Source: Streptomyces sp. f51
Lineage (GTDB): Bacteria > Actinomycetota > Actinomycetes > Streptomycetales > Streptomycetaceae
Direction of reading: 5' to 3'
NCBI RefSeq assembly: GCF_037940415.1
Contig: NZ_CP149798.1
Span: 6,729,001 to 6,793,000 of the forward strand
DNA length: 64,000 nt
Positions 10,824-23,010 of the stretch are shown in pieces. The position numbers were made by a program, and so were the translations under genes. The stretch's first letter is position 1. Each line of letters begins with the position of its first letter. A model generated the notes under the pieces. The model had not been told where the DNA came from. It ran no database searches and saw only the letters and a program-made list of their open reading frames with translations.

Positions 10824-10970
10824 AAACGGCTGCTTTCGGCGGCATCTACCTGCGCATGACCGTCGATACGCGAAGTCCCCGGCGCCAGCGTTTCCGCTGG
10901 TGACGGGGTCTTTGGGCACCTGATGAGGGGTGCCCCGGCAGGATTCGATCCTGCGCACACGGCTCCGGAG
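10824..10970 (-). repeat. left flanking direct repeat: tRNA-Arg(CCG)-like 3' half with terminator
   Basis: On the minus strand this holds, in order, the anticodon loop CTCCGGAG, a T-arm (GCAGG, loop, CCTGC), a truncated acceptor strand, and a hairpin like those found downstream of tRNA genes. It matches 22863-23010 at about 90 percent over its whole length. No 5' half is present, so it is not a functional tRNA gene. The T-loop reads ATCGAAT instead of TTCGAAT and the acceptor lacks one G, both signs of decay. Such 3' halves starting at the anticodon loop are typical scars of tyrosine-integrase insertion into tRNA genes. Confidence 0.7.
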
Positions 10971-11107
10971 CCCAGGTGAGACCGCAGGGGCATTGCTGCC
11001 CTGACCTGCGGCGAAGGCTCCGATCGTGCGAGTGCCGAGCAAGGTCATCACGCCCCTATTACGCGGGTGGCCTGTCGGGTGGTCGGTGCGGGCCGTATCG
11101 TCGAAGC

Positions 11108-12037
11108 ATGATCTCGGGCAGCAGCGAGGGAACGGGCAGCGGCGGCGCGGAGTTCACGGCGGAGGGCCTGGAGCCAGTCCTCCGGGAGGCATGCGCGACC
11201 GCCGGACTCGACTACCGCGGCGCCGAGTTGCTGCGGCTCGGATCGAACGCGGTCTACCGCCTCACGTCGTTACGCGTCATCGTCCGCATCGCGCGTGATC
11301 CGGCGGTTGAAGCGGAGATGGCTCGGGCCGTGGGCGTGGCTCGGTGGCTTGAGGAGCAGGACTTCCCGGCCACGCGTGTGCCGGCGTCCATCGCTCAACC
11401 GCTTGTTGTCGGGGGCCTGGTGGTCACCTTCTGGGAGAGCGTCCAGGAGACCGAGGAGTACGCGACGGTCGGTGAGCTGGCCGACCTCGTGCGCCGCTTG
11501 CACTGGCTCGAAGAGCCTGAGTTCCTGGGGCTGTCGTACTTCGATCCGCTGGCCAAGCTGGCGGCGTCGCTCGAAGGGCTGGACGGCGTCGCGGGGGAGG
11601 ACCGGACGTTCCTGGAGGAGCGAGCGGCGAGGCTCGCCAAGGATTACGACCGGTTGGACTTCGTTCTTCCCTTCGGCATGATCCATGGTGACGCCAGTAT
11701 CGGGAACATCCTCCGCCACCGGGACGGGCACGCGGTGCTCATCGACCTGGACGGCTTCGTCCTTGCTCCGCGTGAGTGGGACTTGATTCAGACGGCGATC
11801 TTCTACGACAGGTACGGCTGGCACACCAAGGCGGAGTACGCCGAGTTCGTGCACCGGTACGGCTTCGACCTGATGAACTGGCCGGGCTACAACACGCTCG
11901 CTGACCTGCGAGAGCTGATGATGGTCGCCTGGCTCGGCCACCAGGTCGCGACGAGTGAGCGGTCTGCCGCCGAATTCGCTCGGCGAGTGCACTCCCTCCG
12001 TACCGGGGAGGGCCGAGACGAGTGGGGCCCGTTCTGA
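11108..12037 (+). CDS. APH-fold phosphotransferase (aminoglycoside/choline kinase-like)
   Basis: A 309-residue kinase-like protein. The catalytic loop is MIHGDASIGNIL with the expected Asp and Asn, and the metal-binding aspartate follows in VLIDLDGFVLAPREWDL. The N-terminal lobe carries GSNAVYRL near residue 50, matching the nucleotide-loop region of the family. The phosphate acceptor cannot be read from sequence; many such proteins are not resistance enzymes. It is the first intact gene inside the repeat-bounded zone and is convergent with the HTH-TPR gene after 18 bp. Confidence 0.78.
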   Translation: MISGSSEGTGSGGAEFTAEGLEPVLREACATAGLDYRGAELLRLGSNAVYRLTSLRVIVRIARDPAVEAEMARAVGVARWLEEQDFPATRVPASIAQPLVVGGLVVTFWESVQETEEYATVGELADLVRRLHWLEEPEFLGLSYFDPLAKLAASLEGLDGVAGEDRTFLEERAARLAKDYDRLDFVLPFGMIHGDASIGNILRHRDGHAVLIDLDGFVLAPREWDLIQTAIFYDRYGWHTKAEYAEFVHRYGFDLMNWPGYNTLADLRELMMVAWLGHQVATSERSAAEFARRVHSLRTGEGRDEWGPF

Positions 12038-12055
12038 TCGGGCGGCTACGTGGGC

Positions 12056-13429
12056 TCAGACAGCGGCGTGAACACCGGAGGCTATCCACAGCCTGTGGTC
12101 TGTGACCTGTTCGGCGAACGCCTGGACATGAGCGCTGTCGCTGGCCCCTGCGAGGTTCTGTCGGAACTCGGCCAGGTAGCTGACGCACCGCGCCGACTTG
12201 AGCTGCTCGCCCAGGTCGAGCGCATCGAGCGCAACGCGACAAGCCTCCTCGACGTCCCCGGCCCGTAGGTGAGCGTCGGCGAGAACTATGGTCGCGAAGA
12301 AGTCGCTCCGTACATGGTTGCCGCTCATCGCGTTCTCGGCGTGGGCGACGGCCTGCCGGGCACTGTTGACGTCACGGAAGCAGTGGGCGGCCTCTGCTGC
12401 GAGCTCCGCCTCGTCGAAGTAGCTGATCCATTCGGGCTCGTCGTCGGTGTTCCTGCTCTCCAGCGCTTTCGTGGCCGCGCTCAAGGCGGCTTCGCAGGCT
12501 CGTACGTCCCCGGTCCGGGCAAGAGCGCGGGCCTCCATGGCGTGGAACTGGGCGCGGAGCGTGGGCGTGGCCACGGGAGAGATGCCCATGAGCGCAGCGC
12601 GGGCGAGCGTCGCAGCCTGGGTGTAGCGACCGAGGAACGTCGCCTGATGGCTCATGGCCGACAGGATGCTTCCGGCGAGCCGGCGGTCGTTGGCGTCCTG
12701 GGCCAAGCGGAGAGCTTGGAGGAAGTACCGCTGTGCCAGACCGTGACGGCAGGCGTCGTACGACATCCAACCGGCGAGGAGTGTGGCTTCCGCCGTGGTG
12801 GAGAGCAGCGCGCGGCCGACCTGTTCGGTGTACTGACCGCGCAGGAGCGGGGCGACTTGGGTGCTGAGGTATTGGATCGCCGCGTGCCGGGCGTGGTCAC
12901 CGCCGAACCGGTCGTCCAGTTCGGCGAACATGTCCGCGGTGGTCTTGATGGCGGCCACGTCTCCGAGACCGACGCGGATTCCGTCCCGGCGCTGCCGAGG
13001 GACGGTCGGCTCGGGTGCCACGAGCCACCGGAGGGATGCTTCGTTCCACGCGGGTTCGGACGGCTCGGCCTGTAAGAGGGGCTCGTACCGGTTTAGATCG
13101 GCGCGCCACAGTTGGCCGACCGCTTCGATCGCGTCGTCGGGGCTCGCTGGATAGCTGACGTCCATGAGCGAGGTATCCCGGCCGCTCTCGTGGTTCAGCC
13201 CCAGTTCGGCTGCGCTGAGGCCGTACGCATCGCACAGGAGCGGCCCGTAGAAGTCGTCCGGAACGCTGTGGCCGTTTTCCCAACTGGCAATACGTCGCTT
13301 GACGCTGGCGTCCGCCGGGAGCCGATGGCCACGGCGGGCCGCAGCCTGGCGCAGTTCGCGCACCAACCGCGGCTGACTCCACCCGCGATCCGAACGGGCC
13401 TGCCATAAGCGAACGCGGGTCGATTCCAT
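12056..13429 (-). CDS. HTH-XRE regulator with TPR-like C-terminal domain
   Basis: A 457-residue protein. Residues 1-75 resemble a Cro/C1-type helix-turn-helix (ARSDRGWSQPRLVREL, then ASVKRRIASWENGHSVP). The rest is a long alpha-helical solenoid of about 34-residue repeats (for example ARRYxx-type helices around AGSILSAMSHQATFLGRY and ALARTGDVRACEAALSAA). This layout is common in Streptomyces regulators of development and of integrated elements. It is divergent from the 13708 gene cluster, with a perfect 15-bp inverted repeat between them, which suggests it controls that promoter and its own. Confidence 0.75.
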   Translation of the reverse strand: MESTRVRLWQARSDRGWSQPRLVRELRQAAARRGHRLPADASVKRRIASWENGHSVPDDFYGPLLCDAYGLSAAELGLNHESGRDTSLMDVSYPASPDDAIEAVGQLWRADLNRYEPLLQAEPSEPAWNEASLRWLVAPEPTVPRQRRDGIRVGLGDVAAIKTTADMFAELDDRFGGDHARHAAIQYLSTQVAPLLRGQYTEQVGRALLSTTAEATLLAGWMSYDACRHGLAQRYFLQALRLAQDANDRRLAGSILSAMSHQATFLGRYTQAATLARAALMGISPVATPTLRAQFHAMEARALARTGDVRACEAALSAATKALESRNTDDEPEWISYFDEAELAAEAAHCFRDVNSARQAVAHAENAMSGNHVRSDFFATIVLADAHLRAGDVEEACRVALDALDLGEQLKSARCVSYLAEFRQNLAGASDSAHVQAFAEQVTDHRLWIASGVHAAV

Positions 13430-13569
13430 CGAAGACGTGACCGTCCTCTCCCGGTGAGTGAACTGGTGCGACCACTGGGACGCACGACTCTGAGGCCGTA
13501 CGACCGAATGTACGCGCGGTTCATGGCCGGATGCTCCAAGTAGCTGTAGATCGCCGGCGATTGAGCCAG

Positions 13570-13612
13570 GACGGGGGATGACGCGTCAACGAGTGAGGCG
13601 TCATCCCCCGTC
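13570..13612. promoter_or_regulatory. perfect 15-bp inverted repeat in a divergent promoter
   Basis: GACGGGGGATGACGC (13570-13584) pairs with 13598-13612 across a 13-base spacer. It lies between the divergent HTH-TPR gene (start 13429) and the 13708 gene. Position upstream of both genes argues for an operator rather than a terminator. CGTCATC/GATGACG heptamers recur in and just after it (to 13626), as expected of a multi-site operator. Confidence 0.5.
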
Positions 13613-13707
13613 ACCCCTCGTCATCTGCCCTGGCCAAGGTGGCGAGCGTGAGTCTGGAGACGGAGCGGCATTGGGGTCGCGACTGAGACTGACCGAGGTG
13701 AGATGAA

Positions 13708-14268
13708 GTGCAGAGGATGACGACCAGGGGCGTCGAATGGCTCTCCGCGGCGGCCGACGATCCGGCCAGTTGCCGGGCGACCTGGGCAGACGACCCACGC
13801 GCACCGTACGCGCTGGCGGCCGGTCGCTTCTTCGACGTGGTGACGGTCGAACAGAGGGTCGGCATGGAGACCTTCGACCAACTTCTGCACCGGGGGCTTC
13901 CGTTCGGGCCCGTGGTACTCGATCACAAGGCCCGGCGCGTGGGCTTCTTCCTCGGCTCGCGGAATCAGGAGACCTTCGTTCACTACCTCGACCAGGAAGA
14001 CGGCGCTCCGCCCGCGTACCGCTATCTGGGGCACGGCTCGGTAGTCGTCGTTCCGGGGCCCATGCCCATGAGCGGTGACCGCTACCAGTGGCTTCGGGCT
14101 CCGACTCGACGCCCCATCGCCAACCCACTGCGTCCGGTGGCTCTGGCCACCATGCTGATTGCCTCCGCCGAACTACTCGCCCGTGTGGACCGGTACGGCG
14201 AGCGCTACCCGTCTGCGGCTGCCCTCGCCCTCCCCATCTTCGAGGGGACTCCGACCGATGCGGGATGA
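13708..14268 (+). CDS. conserved hypothetical protein, possible primase/polymerase N-terminal domain relative
   Basis: A 186-residue soluble protein. The overall pattern (VEWLSAAADDPASCRATW at the start, FDVVTVEQRVGMETFDQL, then HGSVVVVPGPMPMSGDRYQW) recalls the N-terminal part of actinobacterial bifunctional primase/polymerase-like proteins of integrative elements, but I cannot see a full catalytic set and the protein is short. Start is GTG 13708 behind GAGGTGAG; ATG 13717 is possible. It heads a three-gene unit with 14258 and 14619 and is divergent from the HTH-TPR regulator. Confidence 0.6.
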   Translation: MQRMTTRGVEWLSAAADDPASCRATWADDPRAPYALAAGRFFDVVTVEQRVGMETFDQLLHRGLPFGPVVLDHKARRVGFFLGSRNQETFVHYLDQEDGAPPAYRYLGHGSVVVVPGPMPMSGDRYQWLRAPTRRPIANPLRPVALATMLIASAELLARVDRYGERYPSAAALALPIFEGTPTDAG

Positions 14269-14569
14269 CCCCACCCACCGGCAAGACGCTGCCACCTGGT
14301 CGCCTCTGGACACTGACGACTGGTACGCCGCGCGCAACGCCACGACTGCGCTTCGGGACGCTCTGCTCCGTGCCGGCCTGGAGAAGGACTTCCCGTACTT
14401 GCGAGCCGACTTGAACGCGTTCGGGCATGGTCTGGTCGACCTGGGCCGCATCTCGCCGACCACCGCCGAACGTTTAGCGGGATTGTTGCGACTGGCGCTT
14501 GCCGCGGGGCTACGGAGATTGGAAGAGAGCGGCGACGGGGCTGCCGAGCACCACGCAGGAGAGGACTGA
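14258..14569 (+). CDS. small hypothetical protein, tandem paralogue A
   Basis: A 103-residue acidic, helical protein. Its start ATG 14258 overlaps the end of the upstream gene by 11 bp, so the two are translationally linked. The core (helix ALRDALLRAGL, then KDFPYLRADLNAFGHGLVDL, then an LAGLLRLAL helix) matches the next gene position by position: GLExDFPxL, ADxN, GLVxLGxIxP. The two are therefore paralogues. No known function or catalytic motif is visible. Confidence 0.65.
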   Translation: MRDDPTHRQDAATWSPLDTDDWYAARNATTALRDALLRAGLEKDFPYLRADLNAFGHGLVDLGRISPTTAERLAGLLRLALAAGLRRLEESGDGAAEHHAGED

Positions 14570-14618
14570 CGTAATCACCGACCGACGGGGAGTCGTCGCC
14601 AAGCGCGCAGAGGACCTG

Positions 14619-14903
14619 ATGCCTGGCGTGCCGTACGTCCGGGGCTGGTCACAGGCTCGACGTGGCGCTGACGAGCTCGCTGCGCAACTGACCGTCCTGG
14701 GCCTGGAGCCGGACTTCCCTGGCCTCACGGCAGACGTGAACGTCTCGGGCGACGGCCTGGTACGCCTCGGTGTCATACGGCCTGATGCGGCCTTGATTTT
14801 GGCGGAGTTGATTGTGGCGGGCCTCGCGGCGGAGCTGCCGATGCATGCCGAGACGTTGACGCAAGAGGCGGGGAGAGCCCGACACAACTCGCCGGCTGCC
14901 TGA
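14619..14903 (+). CDS. small hypothetical protein, tandem paralogue B
   Basis: A 94-residue protein homologous to the preceding gene: GLEPDFPGLTADVNVSGDGL followed by VRLGVIRPDAALILAEL. The start is uncertain. ATG 14619 follows CAGAGG at fair spacing, but homology may begin further upstream, where the frame has no good start codon (a GTA occurs at the place where GTG would fit). A changed start codon is therefore possible. It is the last gene of the unit; the 382 bp after it hold only the anticodon-arm-like hairpin at 15154. Confidence 0.55.
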   Translation: MPGVPYVRGWSQARRGADELAAQLTVLGLEPDFPGLTADVNVSGDGLVRLGVIRPDAALILAELIVAGLAAELPMHAETLTQEAGRARHNSPAA

Positions 14904-15153
14904 CCGGCTCGACCCGAGAAACCCCGGTCGGTCGCGGTCCGAGCATGCTCGCGCGATCGGCCGGACTGGCCCCGTGCGTCACCGTTCCCGTCGGATGATG
15001 CGCGGGGCCTTCTGCTGTCCGCGAGTCCCGTCGTCTGTGGTCTGCCGCTCGGCCCGGACCGGCGCCCCAGCGCCGCAGCCCGGACGAACGGCAGACCCGC
15101 CACGCTTCGAAGGACGGACGTAGGGCTTGGAAAGGGATCCGCTCTGTAGGACA

Positions 15154-15170
15154 TCAGCTTGGGAAGCTGA
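15154..15170 (+). other. anticodon-arm-like hairpin, possible attachment core
   Basis: TCAGC-TTGGGAA-GCTGA folds as a perfect 5-bp stem with a 7-base loop, the geometry of a tRNA anticodon arm with anticodon GGG (Pro). No T-arm or acceptor stem follows, so it is not a tRNA gene. In a zone with other tRNA-derived fragments it may be an attP-type core. A GTTGC/GCAAC inverted repeat follows at about 15185-15207. Confidence 0.35.
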
Positions 15171-15285
15171 GGTGATCTGGCGCCAGTTGCGTCACTGACC
15201 TGCAACTAAGGGGCGTTGGAGTTCCCAGTGGCCGCTGAGTCAGTGCTCGCTATTCCCCGTGGTTCCCCGCACGACCTGGCACGCA

Positions 15286-15574
15286 TCATTCGTCGCACCT
15301 CTCCAGAACCAGGCTCGCAGACCCCTCTTCGAGTCCATTGTGCTCCTCCAGGTGGAGATGGGTGCCATCCGGCGTGCCGTCCTGGGCGAGTGTGAGCAGG
15401 TGTCCGGCCAGGGTTCTCAGCCCTGCGGCGTTGGCCTCGATCACGATTCTTTTCGCCCAGGGCGCGTACCTCGATGCGTGCGGCTTCCTCCCACATGAAG
15501 ACTCTGGTGATTCCATCGGTCACCGTACCGACGTGAGTGGTCATTGACGGAGCGATGTGGGGTTCAGGGACCAT
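15286..15574 (-). pseudogene. frameshifted Imm32-like small protein gene
   Basis: Two reading frames join into one plausible protein. The 5' frame reads MTTHVGTVTDGITRVFMWE to ALGEK, and the 3' frame continues VIEANAAGLRTLAGHLLTL, then TPDGTHLHLEEHNGLEEGS and SLVLERCDE at the C terminus. The 3' half resembles the Imm32 immunity-protein pattern (NAAGLxxLxxHLLxLA, HLHLE, LEEGS). The switch is at a GAAAAG run (TTTT at 15450-15453 on the plus strand); losing one A would restore the frame. It could be a decayed gene or a sequencing error. The family call rests on remembered pattern only, and the start (15574 or 15544) is uncertain. Confidence 0.55.
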
Positions 15575-15746
15575 GCTCAAGCGTCCCACCCCTCATCCAG
15601 GCCCGGGCTATCCGCCGTGATCACCGCAGGCGCACGCCTTTCAACTGTGGTGGTGGTTCCCGCTAGGCTCCCTGTGAACTTCAGCCTCGGCGCACGCCGG
15701 GGCTTCTTGCGCGGGTGCTCCGAGTCAGGGCACTGGGGAGGGGCGA

Positions 15747-16541
15747 ATGATGAATGCTTCCGCGTTCGGAAGACGGGTCGTTGCAGCGGCGGGTGCCGTG
15801 TCGGTGCTGGCGCTGACCGGCGCATGCGGTGCTGACAGCGGGGACGATGCTGGGGGAGGTGAGAAGTCTGCGACCGCCGAGTCCGCCTCGCCTGCGAACT
15901 CGGCGTCGCAGCGGGCATCCGGATCGCCCGCCTCCGAGGCTGGGAAGGGCCTCGACCAGAAGGGCCTCGACCGCTTGGCGTTGGCCGTGCACGATGTCCC
16001 CGGCTATACGGTCGACACCGTCACGGGCAAGGGCAACGCGGTGGACCACGACGTACTCACGACCTACCGCGCCGTCACGCCCGCACCTTGCCGACCCGTC
16101 TACGCAGCCGCGCAGTTGGGCAGCTTGCACGATTTCACGGCCCAGGTCAGCCAGGACGTCGTGTCCGCCTCCGACGATCTCGGGCAGCACGCGAGTGTCG
16201 GCCTGACGTCTTACGCCCTTGCCGACGCCCGCACGGTGATGGCCGAACTGCGTGCAGCGCTTCCGAAGTGCGGCACCGCCAAGATGCGCCCGTCCGCTGC
16301 CCACCCCGATACTGGGCTGGGGTATTCCGGTCCCCAGTCCCGGCCCGTTTCCGGTTACGGCGACGAGGCCCTCGCTTTCGACGCCACCCAGGTCATCGTC
16401 GGCGGGGGACCCAGCATCCCCGTCACCGTCCTGGTAGTCCGCCAGGACTCCACCATCGCTACCTTCCTGTCCCTCAACCCCTTGCAGCCCCCGACCATCC
16501 CCCAGGACGTCGTCGACGCGCAGCTGAAGAAGCTCGCCTGA
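15747..16541 (+). CDS. lipoprotein, sensor-domain-like
   Basis: A 264-residue predicted lipoprotein: charged N terminus, hydrophobic stretch and lipobox LTGAC at about residues 23-27, then a long Ser/Ala/Gly linker to residue 70. The folded domain alternates strands and helices (VHDVPGYTVDTVTG, PCRPVYAAAQLG, VGLTSYALADARTVMAELR, VTVLVVRQDSTIATFLSL) and has two cysteines. It resembles the PknH-sensor-like extracellular domains common in actinobacterial lipoproteins, but without confirmation. The 325-bp gap after it holds only the tRNA-Arg(CCT) fragment. Confidence 0.7.
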   Translation: MMNASAFGRRVVAAAGAVSVLALTGACGADSGDDAGGGEKSATAESASPANSASQRASGSPASEAGKGLDQKGLDRLALAVHDVPGYTVDTVTGKGNAVDHDVLTTYRAVTPAPCRPVYAAAQLGSLHDFTAQVSQDVVSASDDLGQHASVGLTSYALADARTVMAELRAALPKCGTAKMRPSAAHPDTGLGYSGPQSRPVSGYGDEALAFDATQVIVGGGPSIPVTVLVVRQDSTIATFLSLNPLQPPTIPQDVVDAQLKKLA

Positions 16542-16694
16542 CCTCGCCGGGCGGGGGCGATGATGTACGCGCCGCGGTTCACAGCACACCTTCGGCTAGA
16601 GGGTCCGGCCTCCACGCAGCTGTAGTGGCACGACCCCGGGTAGGACGAAGGGCCAGCCCGAGAGGAAACCCTCCTGAGCCGACCCTTCTGCCTG

Positions 16695-16736
16695 TGCCCC
16701 CAGCAGGATTCGAACCTGCGACACCCGCTTTAGGAG
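16695..16736 (-). other. tRNA-Arg(CCT)-like 3' fragment
   Basis: On the minus strand: anticodon loop CTCCTAA, then GCGGGTGTC, a canonical T-arm (GCAGG TTCGAAT CCTGC), acceptor TGGGGGC and discriminator A. The bases upstream do not form the 5' anticodon-stem strand, D-arm or 5' acceptor. It is therefore a 3' half beginning at the anticodon loop, the shape left by integration into a tRNA gene. It is distinct from the CCG-type fragments at 10.9 and 23.0 kb. Confidence 0.65.
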
Positions 16737-16866
16737 TTCGATCGGCACCTGCCCCTGGTGTCGTCGTCGCCAGGTCCGGCGGTCGTGCGGGGGCGCTGGC
16801 GTATGCCGCCGTCCGGCCTCGTTGATGTCAGCCGTGGATGTCAGACGGCTCTGACATCCTGCGCCA

Positions 16867-17340
16867 GTGAAAATGACATGGGCCGCCTTCTGGGCACTGA
16901 TAGCCACCCTGAACGGCGAAGCCACGGAGGCGAGCTGCCGGCACCTGGCCGAGGAGCTGAGCCGCCGTTCCGTCCCCGACATCATCGGCTTCGCGGAACG
17001 TCATGCCGAGGCTCTCTACCGCTTGGACCAAGAGAAGTTCGGGACGCTTCCGGTTGCCGACATGACGGACCGGAACGGCGAACCCTTCCCGCAGTCTGCC
17101 GACGGTTTCCTGTACGCCCGCTGCGCTGTCGTCGCCGCAGGCCAAACCGTGTGGGAAGGCGTCTTCTTCGACGTCGACAAGTTCGTCCCGTACACCTCCA
17201 CCCGGTTTGACGGGGAGTGGCTGCTGTACGTGCCGGATCAGGCGTACGAACTCGCTACCGGGAAGGAGTGGGACCGCTCGACCCGGTACTGCTCCGAGAG
17301 CTACTCCAACGGGGATGGATGGCCGGACCTGAAGAGCTGA
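16867..17340 (+). CDS. DUF4240 domain protein
   Basis: A 157-residue soluble protein. It begins MTWAAFWALIATLNGEATE and has the repeated L-x-x-L-S-x-x-x-v-x-d-I-x-x-F helix (AEELSRRSVPDIIGFAERH), an aromatic-rich middle (DGFLYARCAVVAAGQ, VWEGVFFDVDKF) and an acidic C terminus, a pattern I associate with DUF4240. These proteins are often found near mobile or competition-related genes, and their function is unknown. The start is GTG 16867; ATG 16873 is equally possible. Confidence 0.65.
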   Translation: MKMTWAAFWALIATLNGEATEASCRHLAEELSRRSVPDIIGFAERHAEALYRLDQEKFGTLPVADMTDRNGEPFPQSADGFLYARCAVVAAGQTVWEGVFFDVDKFVPYTSTRFDGEWLLYVPDQAYELATGKEWDRSTRYCSESYSNGDGWPDLKS

Positions 17341-17481
17341 GATGGACTACCGCTTGATCGGGCACGACTGGGGCGCGACACCTTCTGATCCGTAGCTCTA
17401 GAGAGATCGGTCATTGAAGGTCCTACAGGCCACTGAGGAACCCATGACGACCGGTGTGGGGTACTGCCGGTTGCCGAGGTT

Positions 17482-17544
17482 GCTGTACTTCGCTGCTGTA
17501 CGACCGCCCCGCCTCCTGGCCAACACGCTTTCCAACTGTGTTGG
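17482..17544 (-). other. attP-like region with tRNA-Ser(GGA)-type core and arm-type repeats
   Basis: On the minus strand the stretch TTGGAAAGCGTGTTGG (complement of 17520-17535) equals the anticodon loop, 3' anticodon stem and start of the variable arm of an actinobacterial tRNA-Ser(GGA) as I remember it. No other tRNA parts are present. GCTGTAC occurs twice, 13 bp apart (17482-17488, 17495-17501), like arm-type integrase sites. CCAACAC/GTGTTGG arms (17520-17526, 17538-17544) add symmetry. It lies in a 578-bp stretch (17341-17918) with no convincing gene. Confidence 0.4.
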
Positions 17545-17918
17545 TGGCCTCGTGGGCTGCATCCGGGGTCGTTCACCTGCGTTCATGGGCGGCTGGCGCG
17601 GGCGGCAACACCTGCTGACGGTCCCGTGTGAACGGTCCTGAATGGGGCTGAATGAGACGGGAACTGAGACGGGCGGCTCTACCGGGCAGGCTGCTGCCCC
17701 ACGTGAGGAAATGCGTGGACCCACCACCATGCAAGGGGATAGGTTCCGTCTGGTCATGCGTCGTCTAGCGGCCACGCGGAGTGCTGAGGCGGTTTGTACT
17801 ACTGCCGTAACAACCACTGCCGAACCCCGGCAGGCACGCGCGCCCGGGTGCCGGGGATGGCACTCTTTCCGCCTACGGCCCGTCAGGTCGGGCCAGTCAG
17901 AGGGGGAGTCTCTCCACG

Positions 17919-18395
17919 ATGCATCGCATGCGCGCCGCCGCGGCCGTTCTCGCCGCCGCAGGGCTCGTCGCCGCCACCCAGCTCGGTCTCGCCGGCACGG
18001 CATCGGCCGCGACCCCGGCTACGACGAGCACCGGCTGCCCGGTCAGCCTCGTCTACCCGGCGAGGTTCTACGTCGACTCGCACGGTTGGGTGACCAACGG
18101 CGGTCTGTACTTCGGGATCAAGAACAAGAGCACGACCAAGAGCTTCACGAAGGTCACGCTCACCGTCACGGACGTCGCGAATATCCGCTTCGGCACGGCC
18201 ACGCCCAAGAACGGCCGGGTCACCAACAAGACGTCGATGACGGTCTCCGTGTATACGGGGACCCTCAAGCCGAGCAGCAGCCTCGGCGTGAAGGTGCGGA
18301 CACACCTGCTCAACACCCACAGCTACAAGGTGAAGTTCGCCCTCCACGGCACCGGCTGGACCTGCGCCGTGAACCAGGGCACCTGGGGCGTCTGA
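17919..18395 (+). CDS. secreted protein of unknown function
   Basis: A 158-residue exported protein with a clear Sec signal peptide: MHRMR start, hydrophobic core AAAVLAAAGLVAATQLGLAG and a cleavage site TASA|AT near residue 30. The mature part is rich in Thr, Ser, Lys and Val with two cysteines (one near the N terminus, one near the C terminus in GTGWTCAVN) that could form a disulfide, and looks like an all-beta domain. GGGGAG precedes the ATG. The gene stands alone and is closed by a strong terminator at 18426. Confidence 0.75.
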   Translation: MHRMRAAAAVLAAAGLVAATQLGLAGTASAATPATTSTGCPVSLVYPARFYVDSHGWVTNGGLYFGIKNKSTTKSFTKVTLTVTDVANIRFGTATPKNGRVTNKTSMTVSVYTGTLKPSSSLGVKVRTHLLNTHSYKVKFALHGTGWTCAVNQGTWGV

Positions 18396-18425
18396 CCCCA
18401 AGTGCCCCTTCGGTCCGCAGGGCGT

Positions 18426-18464
18426 CGCGGGGCGCTGTCCATCGGTTCAGGACAGCGCCCCGCG
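18426..18464 (+). terminator. intrinsic terminator
   Basis: Perfect 15-bp stem (CGCGGGGCGCTGTCC at 18426-18440, complement at 18450-18464) with a 9-base loop, 30 bases after the secreted-protein stop. The next 330 bases hold no gene I recognise. Confidence 0.85.
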
Positions 18465-18799
18465 AGGCACAAGGGCTTTGAGGTCTGGCCTCATCTTTAT
18501 CAGGTCGACCACAGGGTCCTGTCAGCGTCGCTCAACCCGTCCCGCGTCTCACTCGATCGTCCATTGACGTCCCGCGTCGACCGCTCGTGTTCGTGCCTGT
18601 TGGTATCAGTCGCTGATGTCAGCCGGGCCCTATGGGTATCCGCGCGGTTCACCGTTGCACCCCGCTCGATCGGGTACGCGAGGGGCATGCTTACGGCCGC
18701 TTTGCCCTGTAGATCATGCGGCTGTACGACCTCATCGCCGACATGTCCGGCTCGCCGAGACGATCCGCCGCCGCAGTGCTCGTATGCGGATTTCACCGA

Positions 18800-19152
18800 G
18801 GAGTACGACGGGCTGAGTGCTATCCGACTGCCTGGTGCGTTGTCGCCGCAGACGTATCCCTCCGGGCCTGATGTGGATGTGATCCGCAGGAGTACCTCGT
18901 AGGACGAAATCCGTATGTGGCGTGTGCCGCCCGCTGCGATCGCTCTGAGGCTGACTTGCTCCGAGCACTCGTTGTCTCGTCGCCGGCACACCAGAAGACA
19001 CGCACGGCGTTGGGTGTGTTGTTCGCAAGGGTGATCGGGGCGACGTTCTCGGGATCGGTCGGATCCAGGTTGCAGCCGACAAGGCAGAGATAGGCCGGAC
19101 TCAGGAAGGCCAGCGTCACGCAACGAGAGACACGGTTGCTCAGAGACTTCAC
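18800..19152 (-). pseudogene. frameshifted small lipoprotein gene
   Basis: From GTG 19152 the frame reads KSLSNRVSRCVTLAFLSPAY, a membrane-type leader with lipobox LVGC, then NLDPTDPENVAPITLANNTP and NAVRVFWCAGDE. After this the coding character moves to another frame, which reads NECSEQVSLRAIAAGG, then ISSYEVLLRITSTSGPEGYV and GDNAPGSRIALS. The shift lies near the two glutamate codons around 18970. The left boundary is approximate. As it stands the lipoprotein would lack its proper C-terminal half. Confidence 0.5.
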
Positions 19153-19325
19153 TGCCCCCCGAAGGTCGCCACGCGAATCCGCACCGTATCGCAAGATCGA
19201 GTGTGCGGGTATGGCCTGACCTGGCAATACATCGACCGCAGCCTTCACGGCTGCCTCTACCCACCACTCACCCCGGCTCCCATCCCGTCTGCCGTCGACC
19301 CACACACCGTGGAGCGGGCGTGGTT

Positions 19326-19375
19326 CAGGGCGTCAAGGTGGAGCGCCCTGCCGGACGAACGACCTTGACGCCCTG
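19326..19375. repeat. 14-bp perfect inverted repeat with 22-base spacer
   Basis: CAGGGCGTCAAGGT (19326-19339) is complementary to 19362-19375, in the gene-free stretch 19153-19729. The hairpin is large enough to be a terminator or a structured RNA element; no adjacent intact gene explains it. The DNA from about 19570 to 19680 is a low-complexity GCGGAGC-rich run. Confidence 0.6.
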
Positions 19376-19729
19376 GGCCGCGACTGCTCGGCTCTGCCTG
19401 GGTCGACGGCGGACGGGATGGGAGCACCCCCGCGCACGCCACACTCGGCCGGCACCCGCGAACGGTGCCCCCGCCATCTCGGAGCCTGAGCGCCCCCGCC
19501 GGAGGCATGCTTGGACCGCTGCTGCAACGTGCAGTGATCAGCTCATTGCCATCGGCCCTATCCACATGTGGGCGCGCGTCGGCGCAGCGCGGGCGGAGCG
19601 GGCCGAAGGCAGGAGCGGCGCCCGCAGCGGAGCCGGGAGCGCGCCCGGCGGAGCGGAGCGCAGCCGGGGCTTGATGAGGTAGAGAAAGTCTGAGCCAACT
19701 GGGCTTCTGCTACAGCCTGAAGGAGGGCC

Positions 19730-19945
19730 CAGGTCGTTGCCTGGGAGGCGGAACTCCTCCAGTGCGAGCGGCTTCTCAGCCGCGGTGAGTGTCACGCGGA
19801 TGATGTGGAGCAGCGGGACGCCTTCGGGGAGTCGGAGGGACTGGGCCTGGTCCGGGAGCGGCATCCGGGTGCGGATGTACTCCGTGAAGCGGAGTTCGTG
19901 GCCCAGCTCGGCGAGCGCTGTGTAGAGCTCAGGGGCCGGCGGCAA
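19730..19945 (-). pseudogene. GntR-family regulator remnant, UTRA domain only
   Basis: The frame encodes the C-terminal ligand-binding (UTRA) part of a GntR/HutC regulator: ELRFTEYIRTRMPLP, PEGVPLLHIIRVTLTAAEKP and LALEEFRLPGNDL. The winged-helix DNA-binding domain is absent. At the 5' side the sequence runs directly into an oppositely oriented integrase fragment. After about residue 72 the frame loses homology and continues as low-complexity peptide. HutC-type regulators (KorSA-like) and integrases are hallmark genes of actinomycete integrative conjugative elements. Confidence 0.65.
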
Positions 19946-19950
19946 GCGGT

Positions 19951-20555
19951 CGGCGGCTGCGGGCGTTCTTCGGATGCCTGTACTACGCGGCCATGCGGCC
20001 GGGCGAGGCGCTCGGGCTCCGCCGGTCCGACTGCACGCTTCCGGCGTCGGGCTGGGGACGTATCGAGCTGGCGGAGACGCGTCCCTCGGCGGGGAAGGCG
20101 TGGACCGACTCCGGTGAGGCGCATGATCGGCGGGGGTTGAAGCAGCGGGCCCAGGGCGAGGTGCGCATCGTGCCGATTCCGCCTCCGCTGGTGTGCCTAC
20201 TGCGAGAGCACTTGAAGGAATTCGGTACGGCGAAGGACGGCCGGCTGTTCTCCAGCGAGCGGGGCAACGTGATCGCGGCCTCCTCGTACTCGCGTGCGTA
20301 GAAGCAGGCGCGGGAACTCGCCCTCGTCCCGATCAAGTGGCCTCGGTCCTCGCCTTCCGGCCGTACGACCTCCGTCACGCAGGAGTCTCCCAGTGGCTCA
20401 ACTCCGGCGTCCCGGCCCCGGAGGTCGCCGTCCGCGCGGGCCACTCGGTGGACGTCCTTCTGAAGATCTACGCCAAGTGCATCGACGGCCAGGAGCGGGA
20501 GATGAACGACCGGATCATGCAAGGACTGGGGGAGGAGGACGAACTCGCAGACTGA
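19951..20555 (+). pseudogene. tyrosine recombinase (integrase) remnant with stop and frameshift
   Basis: Fragment of the catalytic domain. The first frame reads RRLRAFFGCLYYAAMRPGEA with the first active-site arginine, up to SSYSRA, where TAG (20299-20301) replaces what is probably a Trp codon. A frameshift follows within about 45 bases, and the other frame resumes with FRPYDLRHAGVSQWL (H-x-x-R), VRAGHSVDVLLKIYAKCI (the GH and the tyrosine nucleophile) and an acidic C terminus. The N-terminal arm-binding domain is missing. The gene cannot make an active integrase. It abuts the GntR remnant head to head. Confidence 0.75.
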
Positions 20556-20570
20556 CACAACCACATGACC

Positions 20571-20618
20571 GCCGAACGGGAGCCCCGGACCTCCTTTGGT
20601 CCGGGGCTCCCGTTCGGC
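20571..20618. terminator. bidirectional terminator, perfect 21-bp stem
   Basis: The arms 20571-20591 and 20598-20618 are fully complementary across a 6-base loop (TCCTTT). It lies between the integrase remnant stop (20555) and the stop of the convergent membrane-protein gene (20626). Confidence 0.9.
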
Positions 20619-20625
20619 GTGCAGC

Positions 20626-21027
20626 TCACTCTGGTGACCCGAAAGCGTGATCGTGCGGTCGTCGGCGCGAGACCCGTGAGGCAATGAGTACCAAAAGGGC
20701 AGGTGAGACGGTGGCGCCGAGCGAGAGCAGCGTTCCGTTGGCTCGTGCTGCATAGAACATGGGGTATGCGCCGGCCGAGATGACAGAGGCGGCCCATACC
20801 GCTACGAACATGCCGCAGATTGCCAGGACCGCCCAGGAGGAACGGCGCGCGGAGTTTACGGCACGCTCGCGGTCACTGTTCCATACAGCGGCTGCTCTGA
20901 GCAGCGTTGCCGAACAGACGCCGAGCGCGACGGCAGCGGCGACAGATAGGAAAGCGGACCCAGTTCCGACCAATAGGACGGCGAGGAGGAAGTACCATAT
21001 TGCACACAGAATCAGGACCAGTCGCAT
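20626..21027 (-). CDS. small membrane protein of unknown function
   Basis: A 133-residue protein with four predicted membrane helices: LILCAIWYFLLAVLLVGTG, FLSVAAAVALGVCSATLL, AVLAICGMFVAVWAASVI and LLSLGATVSPALLVLIA. The loop between helices 2 and 3 is basic (WNSDRERAVNSARRSS), and the C terminus is Arg-rich. It follows two secreted-protein genes on the same strand (28-bp gap). There is no recognised family. Confidence 0.65.
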   Translation of the reverse strand: MRLVLILCAIWYFLLAVLLVGTGSAFLSVAAAVALGVCSATLLRAAAVWNSDRERAVNSARRSSWAVLAICGMFVAVWAASVISAGAYPMFYAARANGTLLSLGATVSPALLVLIASRVSRRRPHDHAFGSPE

Positions 21028-21054
21028 TCCGTTCCCCTTCCCCGCCAGTCGATG

Positions 21055-21426
21055 TCAGCCTGCTGCTGGAGCTGTCGGCGCCACGTCAACATGCTCGATG
21101 GTATGCCCCTCACTGTCGGTTTCAGTCCAACGCTTCGCATTGGGGTCGTCCGCAGCCCTACGGCCTAATCCAGGAGCGGGCGGCTGTACGCCGCTTGGCA
21201 CGTAGACCTGCTTACCGTCCTTGTCCTTAAGGGGGTTCCCGTCCGATCCCATGACGGGGAGCTTGTCGGGAACCTTGCTGACGTCGGTCGTTCCGTCGGC
21301 ATTTACCCACGCCGGCGGTGGCGGCGGCGTGTGCGGTGTATCGGTTGCCATCGCAGATGAAGCTGCTGCCCCACCGACGATGATGAGCGCTGCTGCGGCG
21401 ACGGCTCCGGTAAGAATCTTGCTCAT
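21055..21426 (-). CDS. secreted proline-rich protein of unknown function
   Basis: A 123-residue exported protein. MSKILTGAVAAAALIIVGGA is followed by ASSAMA|TD, a clear Sec signal with a cleavage site near residue 29. The mature part starts PHTPPPPPAW and then shows GSDGNPLKDKDGKQVYVPSG, a linker-like acidic domain. ATG 21426 starts 16 bases after the stop of the upstream secreted-protein gene, which suggests an operon. No family recognised. Confidence 0.65.
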   Translation of the reverse strand: MSKILTGAVAAAALIIVGGAAASSAMATDTPHTPPPPPAWVNADGTTDVSKVPDKLPVMGSDGNPLKDKDGKQVYVPSGVQPPAPGLGRRAADDPNAKRWTETDSEGHTIEHVDVAPTAPAAG

Positions 21427-21442
21427 GTGACTGCCTTTCGCT

Positions 21443-21964
21443 CTACGGCTCGATGAAGTGGGACCCGGACCAGATCGGGACGTTACGGCCGTACCAGGTG
21501 CCGCCGTAGTAGAGGCCAGAGCCCGCCTTGGTGGCGTAGTCGCCGCCTCCACACGGTGGGGCTATGCCGAAGTTGTAGCTGGTCGTGAGGATGCTGGTCT
21601 TCGCAGAGTTGTAGATGCCGCTCATGTACTCACGGCAGACGTACCATTTACCGCCGCCGTACTTCATGTACTGGTAGCCCACTTCGAGATCGCCAGCTGG
21701 GCGCTCATAGGGGAAAATGCAGCCGCCGATTCCGCTTCCGTTTTGTCCGGCATGGCCTTGAGTCTTCGTATAGCCGCCACTGCCACCGTGAGAGACCTCG
21801 GAATAGGTGTACTCACATTTTGAACTATCGGAGTTCGACCACACCTCCTCGTCCTCGTAGACAACGTGGGCGCTGGCAGAGGTGGATGTGGCAAGGCCTA
21901 GTACGGTGGCTGCACCGATGACGCCTGCGGCCTGCACTGCTTTGCGGACTCTGTCCTGTATCAA
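21443..21964 (-). CDS. secreted Gly/Tyr-rich protein of unknown function
   Basis: A 173-residue exported protein: signal peptide QDRVRKAVQAAGVIGAATVL to STSASA|HV, and a mature part rich in Gly, Tyr and Ser with four cysteines (SKCEY, GGCIF, YVCRE, PPCGG) that could form two disulfides. I chose TTG 21964, four bases after GGGGAGGG, because no ATG or GTG fits before the signal peptide; in-frame sequence further upstream looks non-coding. Lower GC and varied codon use compared with the core genes suggest horizontally acquired DNA. Confidence 0.6.
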   Translation of the reverse strand: MIQDRVRKAVQAAGVIGAATVLGLATSTSASAHVVYEDEEVWSNSDSSKCEYTYSEVSHGGSGGYTKTQGHAGQNGSGIGGCIFPYERPAGDLEVGYQYMKYGGGKWYVCREYMSGIYNSAKTSILTTSYNFGIAPPCGGGDYATKAGSGLYYGGTWYGRNVPIWSGSHFIEP

Positions 21965-22221
21965 TGACCCTCCCCGTGGTGGCTGTTTGGACCCGGCGCA
22001 CGCTAGCAGGGGGCTGATCATGCATTGGCAAAGTCGGTCATGTTTAGGACAAAATGGCTTTGAGTTCTTCTTAGTGTTTGATCGATTGGTGATTCCTCGC
22101 GAAGGGTTACGCACCGGCTGGTGTCGCGTTCGACGCTGCAACCGTGGATCGCCACCCGAGGGCGCTATCTATGTGCGGCCGGTTGATCGGATGTCATGGG
22201 CGGCTGGTTAAGCTCCCGGCC

Positions 22222-22740
22222 ATGGCGAAAGATCTAGGCTTCACCTGCTCATGTTGCGGGGAGTACCACGCGGAGCTTCCGATGGGTTGCTCGACCACGG
22301 CCCCTGACGTCTGGCACGAGAGCTTCGCGGACGATCCCGACAGCATGCTCTCTAGTGACCAGTGCATCATCAAAGGCCAGCACTACTTCATCAAGGGCCT
22401 GATCGAGATACCGGTGGTCGGCAGGGAAGACCCCTTTTCCTGGGGCGTCTGGGTCTCCTTGAGCCGGGACAGCTTCGCCCGAGCCCTGGACATGTGGAAC
22501 ACCCCTGGGCGTGAAGCTGAGAAACCGTACTTCGGCTGGCTGACCACTGAGCTGAGTCTGTATTCGCCCAGCACGCTCAACCTGAAGACGAACGCTCACA
22601 CTCGTCCCATCGGTCAGCGCCCCTTCATTGAGCTGGAACCCACCGATCATCCCCTCGCAGTCGATCAGCGGACCGGTATGACGTACGAGCGCGTGCGCGA
22701 GATTGCGGAGGCGGTTCTCCACCCCGGCGACAATGCGTGA
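22222..22740 (+). CDS. DUF2199 domain protein
   Basis: A 172-residue soluble protein. The N-terminal FTCSCCGEYHAELPMGC (zinc-ribbon-like cysteines and the H-x-x-LP motif) and the following DDPDSMLSSDQCIIKGQHYF, RGLIEIPV-type and WGVWVSLS segments are characteristic of DUF2199. Function unknown. ATG 22222 was chosen because the domain begins immediately after it. It is the last intact gene before the right flanking repeat. Confidence 0.8.
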   Translation: MAKDLGFTCSCCGEYHAELPMGCSTTAPDVWHESFADDPDSMLSSDQCIIKGQHYFIKGLIEIPVVGREDPFSWGVWVSLSRDSFARALDMWNTPGREAEKPYFGWLTTELSLYSPSTLNLKTNAHTRPIGQRPFIELEPTDHPLAVDQRTGMTYERVREIAEAVLHPGDNA

Positions 22741-22862
22741 TCCGAGTTGCGTGACCGGTGAGCCCTCGGTCCACGCCTCGACTCTCAGAGGACCGCGGAA
22801 CAGGTGCTGACGTGCCGTGAAGCCCCTCAAGATCAACACGTCATTACAACGTGATCACTGGC

Positions 22863-23010
22863 AAACGGCTGCTTTCGGCGGCATCTGCCTGCGCATGACC
22901 GTAGATACGCGAAGACCCCGGCCTCAGCGTTTCCGCTGGTGACGGGGTCTTTCGGCACCTCGTAAGGGGTGCCCCCGGCAGGATTCGAACCTGCGCACAG
23001 GGCTCCGGAG
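22863..23010 (-). repeat. right flanking direct repeat: tRNA-Arg(CCG)-like 3' half with terminator
   Basis: This is the second copy of the segment at 10824-10970, in the same orientation about 12.04 kb away. On the minus strand it has CTCCGGAG, T-arm GCAGG TTCGAAT CCTGC, acceptor CGGGGGC and discriminator A, then the hairpin with arms AAGACCCCG and CGGGGTCTT. The tRNA part is better preserved than in the left copy. Bases upstream of the anticodon loop do not form a D-arm or 5' acceptor, so this too is only a 3' half. The hairpin is positioned as a terminator for the tRNA strand. Confidence 0.75.

Follow-up and report, generated by a model that had tools for sequence, protein, structure and literature searches.

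Integron cassette arrays hold single genes between recombination sites of one polarity; the gene order is shuffled, and an anchor lies beside a conserved backbone. Actinomycete integrative and conjugative elements (AICEs) are described, in the available sections of PMC9513070 and PMC3218068, with flanking repeats and variable cargo and not with internal arrays of heterologous attachment (att) sites. What the accessible part of the literature does describe is single-specificity accretion, tandem AICEs, and the replacement of integrases. The elements that accretion brings together share one specificity (PMC9513070), and replacement of the integrase alters the specificity of an AICE (Choufa et al., PMC9513070). 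In the open-licence literature, as far as its text was accessible, we found no description of a polarized heterologous att array in a cargo zone, which is weak evidence of absence. The locus considered here lies in a 64,000-nucleotide stretch of Streptomyces sp. f51 (NZ_CP149798.1, positions 6,729,001 to 6,793,000 of the 8.09-Mb chromosome; hereafter, the window). Sequence comparison makes it probable that the block at 10.9 to 23.0 kb of the window is a decayed AICE of Arg-CCG specificity carrying a one-way cargo array of att sites, and that cassettes have been swapped between such arrays by recombination at like cores.

The block at 10.87 to 23.01 kb

We read 10.87 to 23.01 kb as a single decayed AICE, and not as a pile of separate insertions, on the basis of its boundaries and gene order. 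The Arg-CCG sites at 10970 and 23010 lie on the same strand, and such direct att repeats of a tRNA 3' end bound an element; an Arg-CCG att core is likewise found near each end of NZ_CP109278.1, a 20,952-bp plasmid record of Streptomyces sp. NBC_01635. This record carries, in order, APH, a hypothetical gene, Prim-Pol, small genes, cargo, GntR, an FtsK/SpoIIIE-domain protein, a replication initiator, an HTH protein, and the integrase. The order in the window (APH, regulator, Prim-Pol, small genes, cargo, GntR, [tra-rep-xis], int, and att, with the bracketed genes missing) agrees with it, the NsdA-type regulator of the window occupying the place of the hypothetical gene. Matching segments of the window, at 82 to 87% DNA identity, are 10866-12037, 12152-15169, 19599-19942, 19941-20537, and 22807-23010.

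At the joint at 19941/19942, ∼5.6 kb is missing relative to NZ_CP109278.1, comprising part of GntR, tra (traB), rep, xis, and the N-terminal half of int. The integrase remnant, ∼2.4 kb from the att site at 23010, is frameshifted, compared to an uninterrupted coding sequence in the record. Within 10 to 24 kb of the window, no match was found to the tra (FtsK-like TraB) and rep (replication initiator) open reading frames (ORFs) of the record, which points to a decayed derivative and no working AICE. The dead integrase, the HutC-type regulator stub, and the decay given in the original prediction are thus all supported by homology to an annotated element; its hot landing zone of several insertions gives way to one AICE-like block bounded by two Arg-CCG sites. 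Some genes at 20.6 to 22.7 kb have no counterpart in the record, and the native tRNA-Arg-CCG is at 5.10 Mb, away from the position of the element. Nineteen of the 20 plasmid records matching the zone are from Streptomyces. PADLOC assigned no defense family among 10 window ORFs. The features of the block are as follows, with matches to tRNAs given as identical bases.

10866-10932, minus: sequence 3' of the Arg-CCG core (P' side, of the type downstream of tRNA-Arg-CCG); 10866-10973 matches the tRNA-Arg-CCG region of genome G129 at 86% identity, and 10824-10970 is 80% identical to NZ_CP109278.1 20813-20950
10933-10970, minus: Arg-CCG att core at the distal AICE end, 38 nt long and starting at the anticodon loop (37/38, E = 2e-14); NZ_CP109278.1 has the same att type near both ends
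11108-12037, plus: APH-fold kinase gene, first at the distal end (Pfam PF01636, 3e-17); frame open from 10976, the start codon at 11108 being a guess; 10866-12037 is 83% identical to NZ_CP109278.1 7-1179
12056-13429, minus: NsdA-family TPR regulator (NCBIfam NF053720, 1e-125); 88% protein identity in NZ_CP109278.1
13702-14268, plus: Prim-Pol domain protein (Pfam PF09250, 2.5e-10); 84% protein identity in NZ_CP109278.1
15038-15097, no strand: palindromic noncoding element preceding the array (anchor), in 26/31 distinct loci; DNA fold z = -3.4
15154-15286, minus: Gly-CCC short att site, arm 15166-15286 and 12-nt core 15165-15154 (arm-plus-core model E = 1e-29, window site among the seeds)
15747-16541, plus: cargo gene, predicted lipoprotein, called from its reading frame and its GC bias; G108 has 15656-16632 at 89% identity
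16694-16843, minus: Arg-CCT att site, 43-nt core 16736-16694 (42/43, E = 2e-17) and arm 16737-16843; arm matched in other genomes, attP of VWB and RP3 97.7% identical
16867-17340, plus: cargo gene, DUF4240 protein (Pfam PF14024, 2.7e-17), beside an Arg-CCT arm in other genomes too
17380-17501, minus: Arg-ACG short att site, core 17395-17380 (16/16) and arm 17396-17501; arm family of 10 seed sites, including L168 at 8956 (element at tRNA-Arg-ACG, G140)
17520-17684, minus: Ser-GGA short att site, core 17535-17520 (16/16) and arm 17536-17684 (E = 4e-48, window site among the seeds)
17919-18395, plus: cargo gene, predicted secreted protein, in the cassette bounded by the Ser and Ile cores; a copy of 17515-18508 at 2.128 Mb of the same genome has 97.7% identity
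18422-18468, no strand: strong hairpin (terminator-like) at the cassette end; z = -7.5 for 18415-18475
18486-18645, minus: Ile-GAT short att site, core 18504-18486 (18/19) and arm 18505-18645 (E = 3e-33, window site among the seeds)
19699-19941, minus: GntR/UTRA (HutC-type) regulator remnant; 19599-19942 is 82% identical to NZ_CP109278.1 13528-13861, a stretch containing the end of a gene annotated as GntR
19942-20555, plus: frameshifted C-terminal remnant of the AICE integrase; 87% DNA and 93 to 94% protein identity to the integrase of NZ_CP109278.1
22807-23010, minus: Arg-CCG att site at the integrase end, core 23010-22969 (41/42, E = 8e-17); 84% identical to NZ_CP109278.1 20757-20950

A long hairpin element at 19251-19691, beside the GntR remnant (DNA fold z = -6.25 for 19290-19420), recurs in loci such as L117, L120, L121, and L128.

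The tRNA fragments were located by BLAST searches of the window, plus 10 kb on either side, with the tRNA sequences of the same genome (57 distinct sequences, from 69 matches elsewhere on the chromosome). Seven fragments, three long and four short, fall within 10.9 to 23.0 kb, on the minus strand throughout, and ARAGORN found no intact tRNA in 10 to 24 kb of the window. These searches confirmed the predicted presence of at least three fragment types (Arg-CCG twice, Arg-CCT, and Ser-GGA). The fragments are 3' parts that start within one base of the first anticodon-loop base, except for Gly-CCC, where the match (15170-15154, 17/17) covers both strands of the anticodon stem. A Pro-GGG fragment, also proposed, is not supported; its signal reduces to the T-arm identity of the Arg-CCT fragment. 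A loop-anchored scan gave seven window matches scoring at least 13, all of which lie within 10.9 to 23.0 kb on the minus strand; this set misses the Ile-GAT fragment and includes a Met-like match (15498-15481, 17/18) that we dropped as probably coincidental, as it lies within an ORF. In 400 kb of control DNA from 20 other places in the genome, with true tRNAs excluded, the scan returned three matches scoring 12 to 13 and no non-tRNA match scoring 14 or more. As a candidate RNA family, the locus was rejected, no Rfam match attaining the gathering score. Elsewhere in this genome, at 7,448,658 and 7,476,542, are atypical Met-CAT-like and Trp-CCA-like tRNAs with common D- and T-arm sequences, and a similar Trp tRNA is contained in one array stretch (L121).

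The original prediction had named colinearity of this segment with core genes in all related genomes as an outcome that would count against it, and such colinearity was not found. The best matches of the flanking genes, which are matches and not confirmed orthologues, lie ∼8 kb (G022), 31 kb (G011), and 80 kb (G007) apart in three relatives and are farther apart, inverted, or on different contigs in the rest. No clean empty site was obtained from this flank comparison.

Arms, cores, and polarity of the sites

Judged by sequence, the inner fragments are att-type sites in the cargo zone of the AICE, and a conserved arm adjoins each of them on the anticodon side. The predicted origin of the fragments, as att material of tRNA-targeting tyrosine-integrase elements, is borne out by the Arg-CCT fragment, which has a single mismatch to the annotated attP of phage VWB and to RP3 sequence whose annotation places it in the "core of attP" of that phage. 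For the fragments inspected, ∼110 to 150 bp on the anticodon side is conserved across other genomes. Clustering of these flanks yielded families by type, of which Arg-CCT has four, and the Ala-CGC and Arg-ACG arms are related. The arm families include att sites that have an adjacent integrase gene and belong to elements at the cognate tRNA (L167 and L169 at tRNA-Ser-GGA and L168 at tRNA-Arg-ACG), and we read the conserved flanks as candidate integrase arm regions.

Two kinds of site were observed. Some, mostly terminal, contain most or all of the tRNA 3' half (38 to 57 nt). Most internal sites contain 12 to 19 nt, namely the loop together with the 3' stem strand of the anticodon arm, in some cases extended by a few bases, followed by unrelated sequence. 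Among 29 loci fetched by using the AICE backbone as the query, all 28 complete-end sites were short, with a mean of 11.3/12 core bases kept, then 3.7/12, and then 4.0/16 further on (this count retains one row, L242 at 5/12, that probably has no real core). For loci fetched with a Ser-site pattern, 14 of 20 sites were short and 6 were full, and internal Arg-CCT sites are often full (the window, G049, and G101). Arg-ACG cores, where the arm model overran the core, were left out of model-based core placement. According to the available part of PMC10865867, a common core of 8 to 10 bp works for some actinophage integrases without rebuilding the tRNA. Integration at secondary sites was considered as an origin of the short sites and is disfavored: the target should replace the core, yet the core is intact.

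Site polarity was assessed in several ways. Ten site families were each modelled as arm plus core; these models, for which some of the recovered sites served as seeds, gave 121 matches in 1.18 Mb, seeds included, and no match in 400 kb of control DNA from the same genome. In 30 loci with at least two matches, 109 of 110 matches share the polarity of their locus, although these loci were selected by their resemblance to the window or by exact cores, and so contain sites, and some are neighboring stretches of one genome. Of the 29 backbone-search loci, 26 contain the backbone and 17 of those contain sites; all 27 sites share one polarity relative to the backbone (the query also contained the Gly site, and the three loci lacking the backbone were excluded from the count). 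Likewise, the other sites in 20 loci from among the matches of a 17-base Ser-site pattern agree in polarity (25/25). In 45 genomes, exact cores were located for five types; where two cores of unlike type lay within 10 kb of each other, they were in the same orientation in 32 cases and opposite in 2, compared to 2.2 in all expected randomly; 10 of the 32 are the window cluster, one Arg-ACG row (G036, contig C2) was left out, positions were matched without contig names, and native tRNAs are among the sites. At most two candidates per genome were scored in the similarity and backbone searches, and counts from these are lower bounds.

Site order varies between arrays, sites may abut, and up to five modelled specificities are mixed in one array. 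Of 391 genomes of the order, 82 had the Ser-site pattern; every one of these is a Streptomyces genome, and none of the 23 genomes outside the genus had it; a reversed-pattern control gave 0. Two linear plasmid records of 1.04 Mb (L212) and 0.79 Mb (L214) carry similar one-way arrays, and the L214 stretch holds AIPR, AbiV, PIN-domain, and restriction endonuclease genes. More sites or arrays are found in the same genome as the window at 2.116 to 2.136 Mb (L117), near tRNA-Val-TAC; at 2.486 to 2.506 Mb (L183), ∼8 kb from tRNA-Arg-TCT; and at 7.176 to 7.196 Mb (L184), where the 20 kb fetched contains no tRNA.

Proposed cassette exchange and alternative explanations

In selected pairs of arrays, sequence identity switches at the cores. 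The Ile-Ser cassette of the window is 97 to 98% identical to the 2.128-Mb locus of its own genome (L117) and 96 to 98% identical to G095. Beyond that cassette, the Ile arms are 63 to 69% identical and the sequences past the Ser core 55 to 62%, compared to a mean of 55% and a maximum of 64% in random comparisons. At the Ile core, identity between the window and L117 changes from 0.63 to 0.98. At the Gly core, it changes from 0.64 to 0.86-0.93 between L118 and L183 and from 0.62 to 0.80 between the window and NZ_CP109278.1, the 84% identity of the latter pair ending within 4 bp of the Gly loop. Reverse switches were seen at Ser (window and L118) and at Arg-CCT (window and L120). Between the window and G095, a block of 94.8% identity extends into the Ile arm, where identity drops to 0.69.

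The junction between backbone and array has a recurrent form. The ∼60-bp palindrome occurs in 26 of the 31 distinct loci of this AICE family, and in 16 of these 26 a site oriented like the array lies no more than 60 bp beyond it (Gly in 14, Arg-CCT in 1, and Pro in 1). Across 13 Gly anchors, mean identity is 95% for the palindrome and 92% for the core, compared to 62% for the arm, and the spacer is near random (49 to 56% within spacing classes). Within anchor classes the palindrome is 93 to 98% identical, versus 72 to 79% for the neighboring gene region. This palindrome is possibly a transfer locus, a replication signal, or a bidirectional terminator.

Starting from the observed site anatomy, polarity, sharp core end, switches at cores in the selected pairs, and AICE homology of the block, we propose the following mechanism. 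The cargo zone would consist of sites for other integrases (Gly-CCC, Arg-CCT, Arg-ACG, Ser-GGA, and Ile-GAT), most of them separated by single cargo genes; every internal site would comprise an arm of ∼110 to 150 bp, a left core flank, and a core, usually of 12 to 19 nt, that begins at the anticodon loop. If like cores in direct orientation recombine, all sequence to one side of them would be exchanged, with the polarity retained and mosaic joints left at the cores. Integrases from other AICEs or phages would presumably catalyze the exchange in trans, and array sites may be retained for their usefulness. The locus at 10.9 to 23.0 kb contains no intact recombination enzyme; integrase genes do occur in the same genome near tRNA-Ser-GGA, tRNA-Arg-ACG, and tRNA-Val-TAC, which makes action in trans possible. 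A fuller version, which we advance tentatively, is that Streptomyces AICEs carry an integron-like cassette platform for many site specificities, keeping minimal anticodon-arm cores and integrase arms without their own integrases so that resident AICE and phage integrases can exchange single-gene cassettes between elements.

Several observations weigh against cassette exchange at cores. The seven array pairs in the switch comparison were picked by hand; between the window and L117, the cores at the Ser end are not identical and the switch falls ∼9 nt beyond them, and between the window and G095, the Ile arm remains alignable. When every array pair is considered, 23 of 430 homology ends are no farther than 15 bp from a core, compared to 5.0 expected (maximum of 13 in 500 draws), but part of this enrichment is built in, as arm homology ends at the core by construction. 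No site was detected within 60 bp of 10 of the 26 anchors, and the Gly anchor cores are mutated in 4 of 13. The test for repeats inside the arms was weak, with no significant repeats in seven of eight flanks (one at 0.01). One Gly site in G091 is reversed, and 3'-half fragments of Ser-TGA run opposite to the array in all seven loci that have them (L117, L121, L124, L127, L172, L212, and L214). Adjacent sites differ in specificity, so two events or enzymes would be required to move one cassette. Finally, a short core cannot rebuild a tRNA and thus would not allow safe integration into an essential tRNA gene; the safe partners of short sites would be other array sites or displaced att sites.

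Alternatively, the sites could be passive fossils without present function, left behind as old attP sites by serial integrase-attP swaps, with homologous recombination shuffling the blocks. Integrase replacement has been reported for AICEs (available sections of PMC9513070), the integrase of the window is dead, and a profile search found no integrase in many array stretches of 8 to 20 kb. A fixed backbone order would leave abandoned attP sites in the same orientation, which explains the uniform polarity, and intact arms are also explained. However, this account leaves unexplained the identity stop near the end of the anticodon stem, the persistence of Gly anchor cores beside a diverged arm and spacer, and the identity switches at cores, and a viable tRNA-restoring attP would be expected to hold the full tRNA half. 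We regard it as unlikely. An array acting as a decoy, which would bind or divert competing AICE and phage integrases and so shield the element or host, with exchange as a side effect, is very improbable: it fits the coverage of several specificities together and the defense-type cargo (AIPR and AbiV) in two arrays on plasmid records, but the binding is putative, PADLOC returned no defense family for the window ORFs tested, and polarity would not be required. Independent nested insertions of several tRNA elements with decay at a hot spot, the origin first predicted, would account for the several specificities, the dead integrase, and the variable flank spacing but are hardly credible and were rejected, since they predict mixed orientation and paired ends, whereas one AICE backbone accounts for the block, the inner window sites are single (no attL/attR pairs; short cores in 4/5) and of one polarity, the same zone and polarity recur in other genomes, and backbone-fetched loci are uniform in polarity.

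If cassette exchange at like cores is correct, it would explain the shuffling of AICE cargo among Streptomyces without transposons, as well as clusters of tRNA scraps in islands distant from tRNA genes. The signature is simple (an arm and a loop-and-stem core, in one polarity) and could be used to delimit cargo cassettes, and the action of integrases in trans on heterologous sites becomes directly testable.

Comparison with described systems

A direct relative of the element is the AICE of NZ_CP109278.1, which shares its gene order, Arg-CCG att type, and an integrase 93 to 94% identical in the surviving part; it differs in that the window copy is decayed. Tandem accretion and cis-mobilizable elements resemble the array in having repeated att sites in direct orientation, as seen at tRNA-Arg-CCT in G104 and G124. 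In the window, however, the inner sites differ in type from their neighbors, and only the whole element is flanked by one type, Arg-CCG. Accretion of att sites at one tRNA was rejected as an explanation on account of the mixed site types and the lack of a tRNA gene at the locus.

Two further systems share single traits with the array. In tRNA-dependent lysogeny of actinophages, as presented in the accessible part of PMC10865867, tyrosine integrases use a core of 8 to 10 bp and the tRNA is not rebuilt, and the cores here are also short; that system has one phage, one attP, and a phage-supplied tRNA, with no arrays described in that part of the source, whereas ARAGORN found no element-borne tRNA in 10 to 24 kb of the window. 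The tripartite ICE3 (an integrative and conjugative element) of Mesorhizobium is alike in bringing several integrases to one element but, in the available portion of PMC5882170, comprises three dispersed regions with their own integrases and excisionases and no cargo array.

The general organization is most readily set beside that of the integron. No dedicated integrase was found in the window besides the AICE remnant, no search aimed at IntI or attC having been made, and the array differs from an integron in its many specificities, its long arms, and the use of tRNA anticodon-arm sites. The two are alike in having single genes between sites, one polarity, shuffled order, and a recurrent anchor by the backbone, and one-way arrays of this type may represent an undescribed way of shuffling cargo genes.

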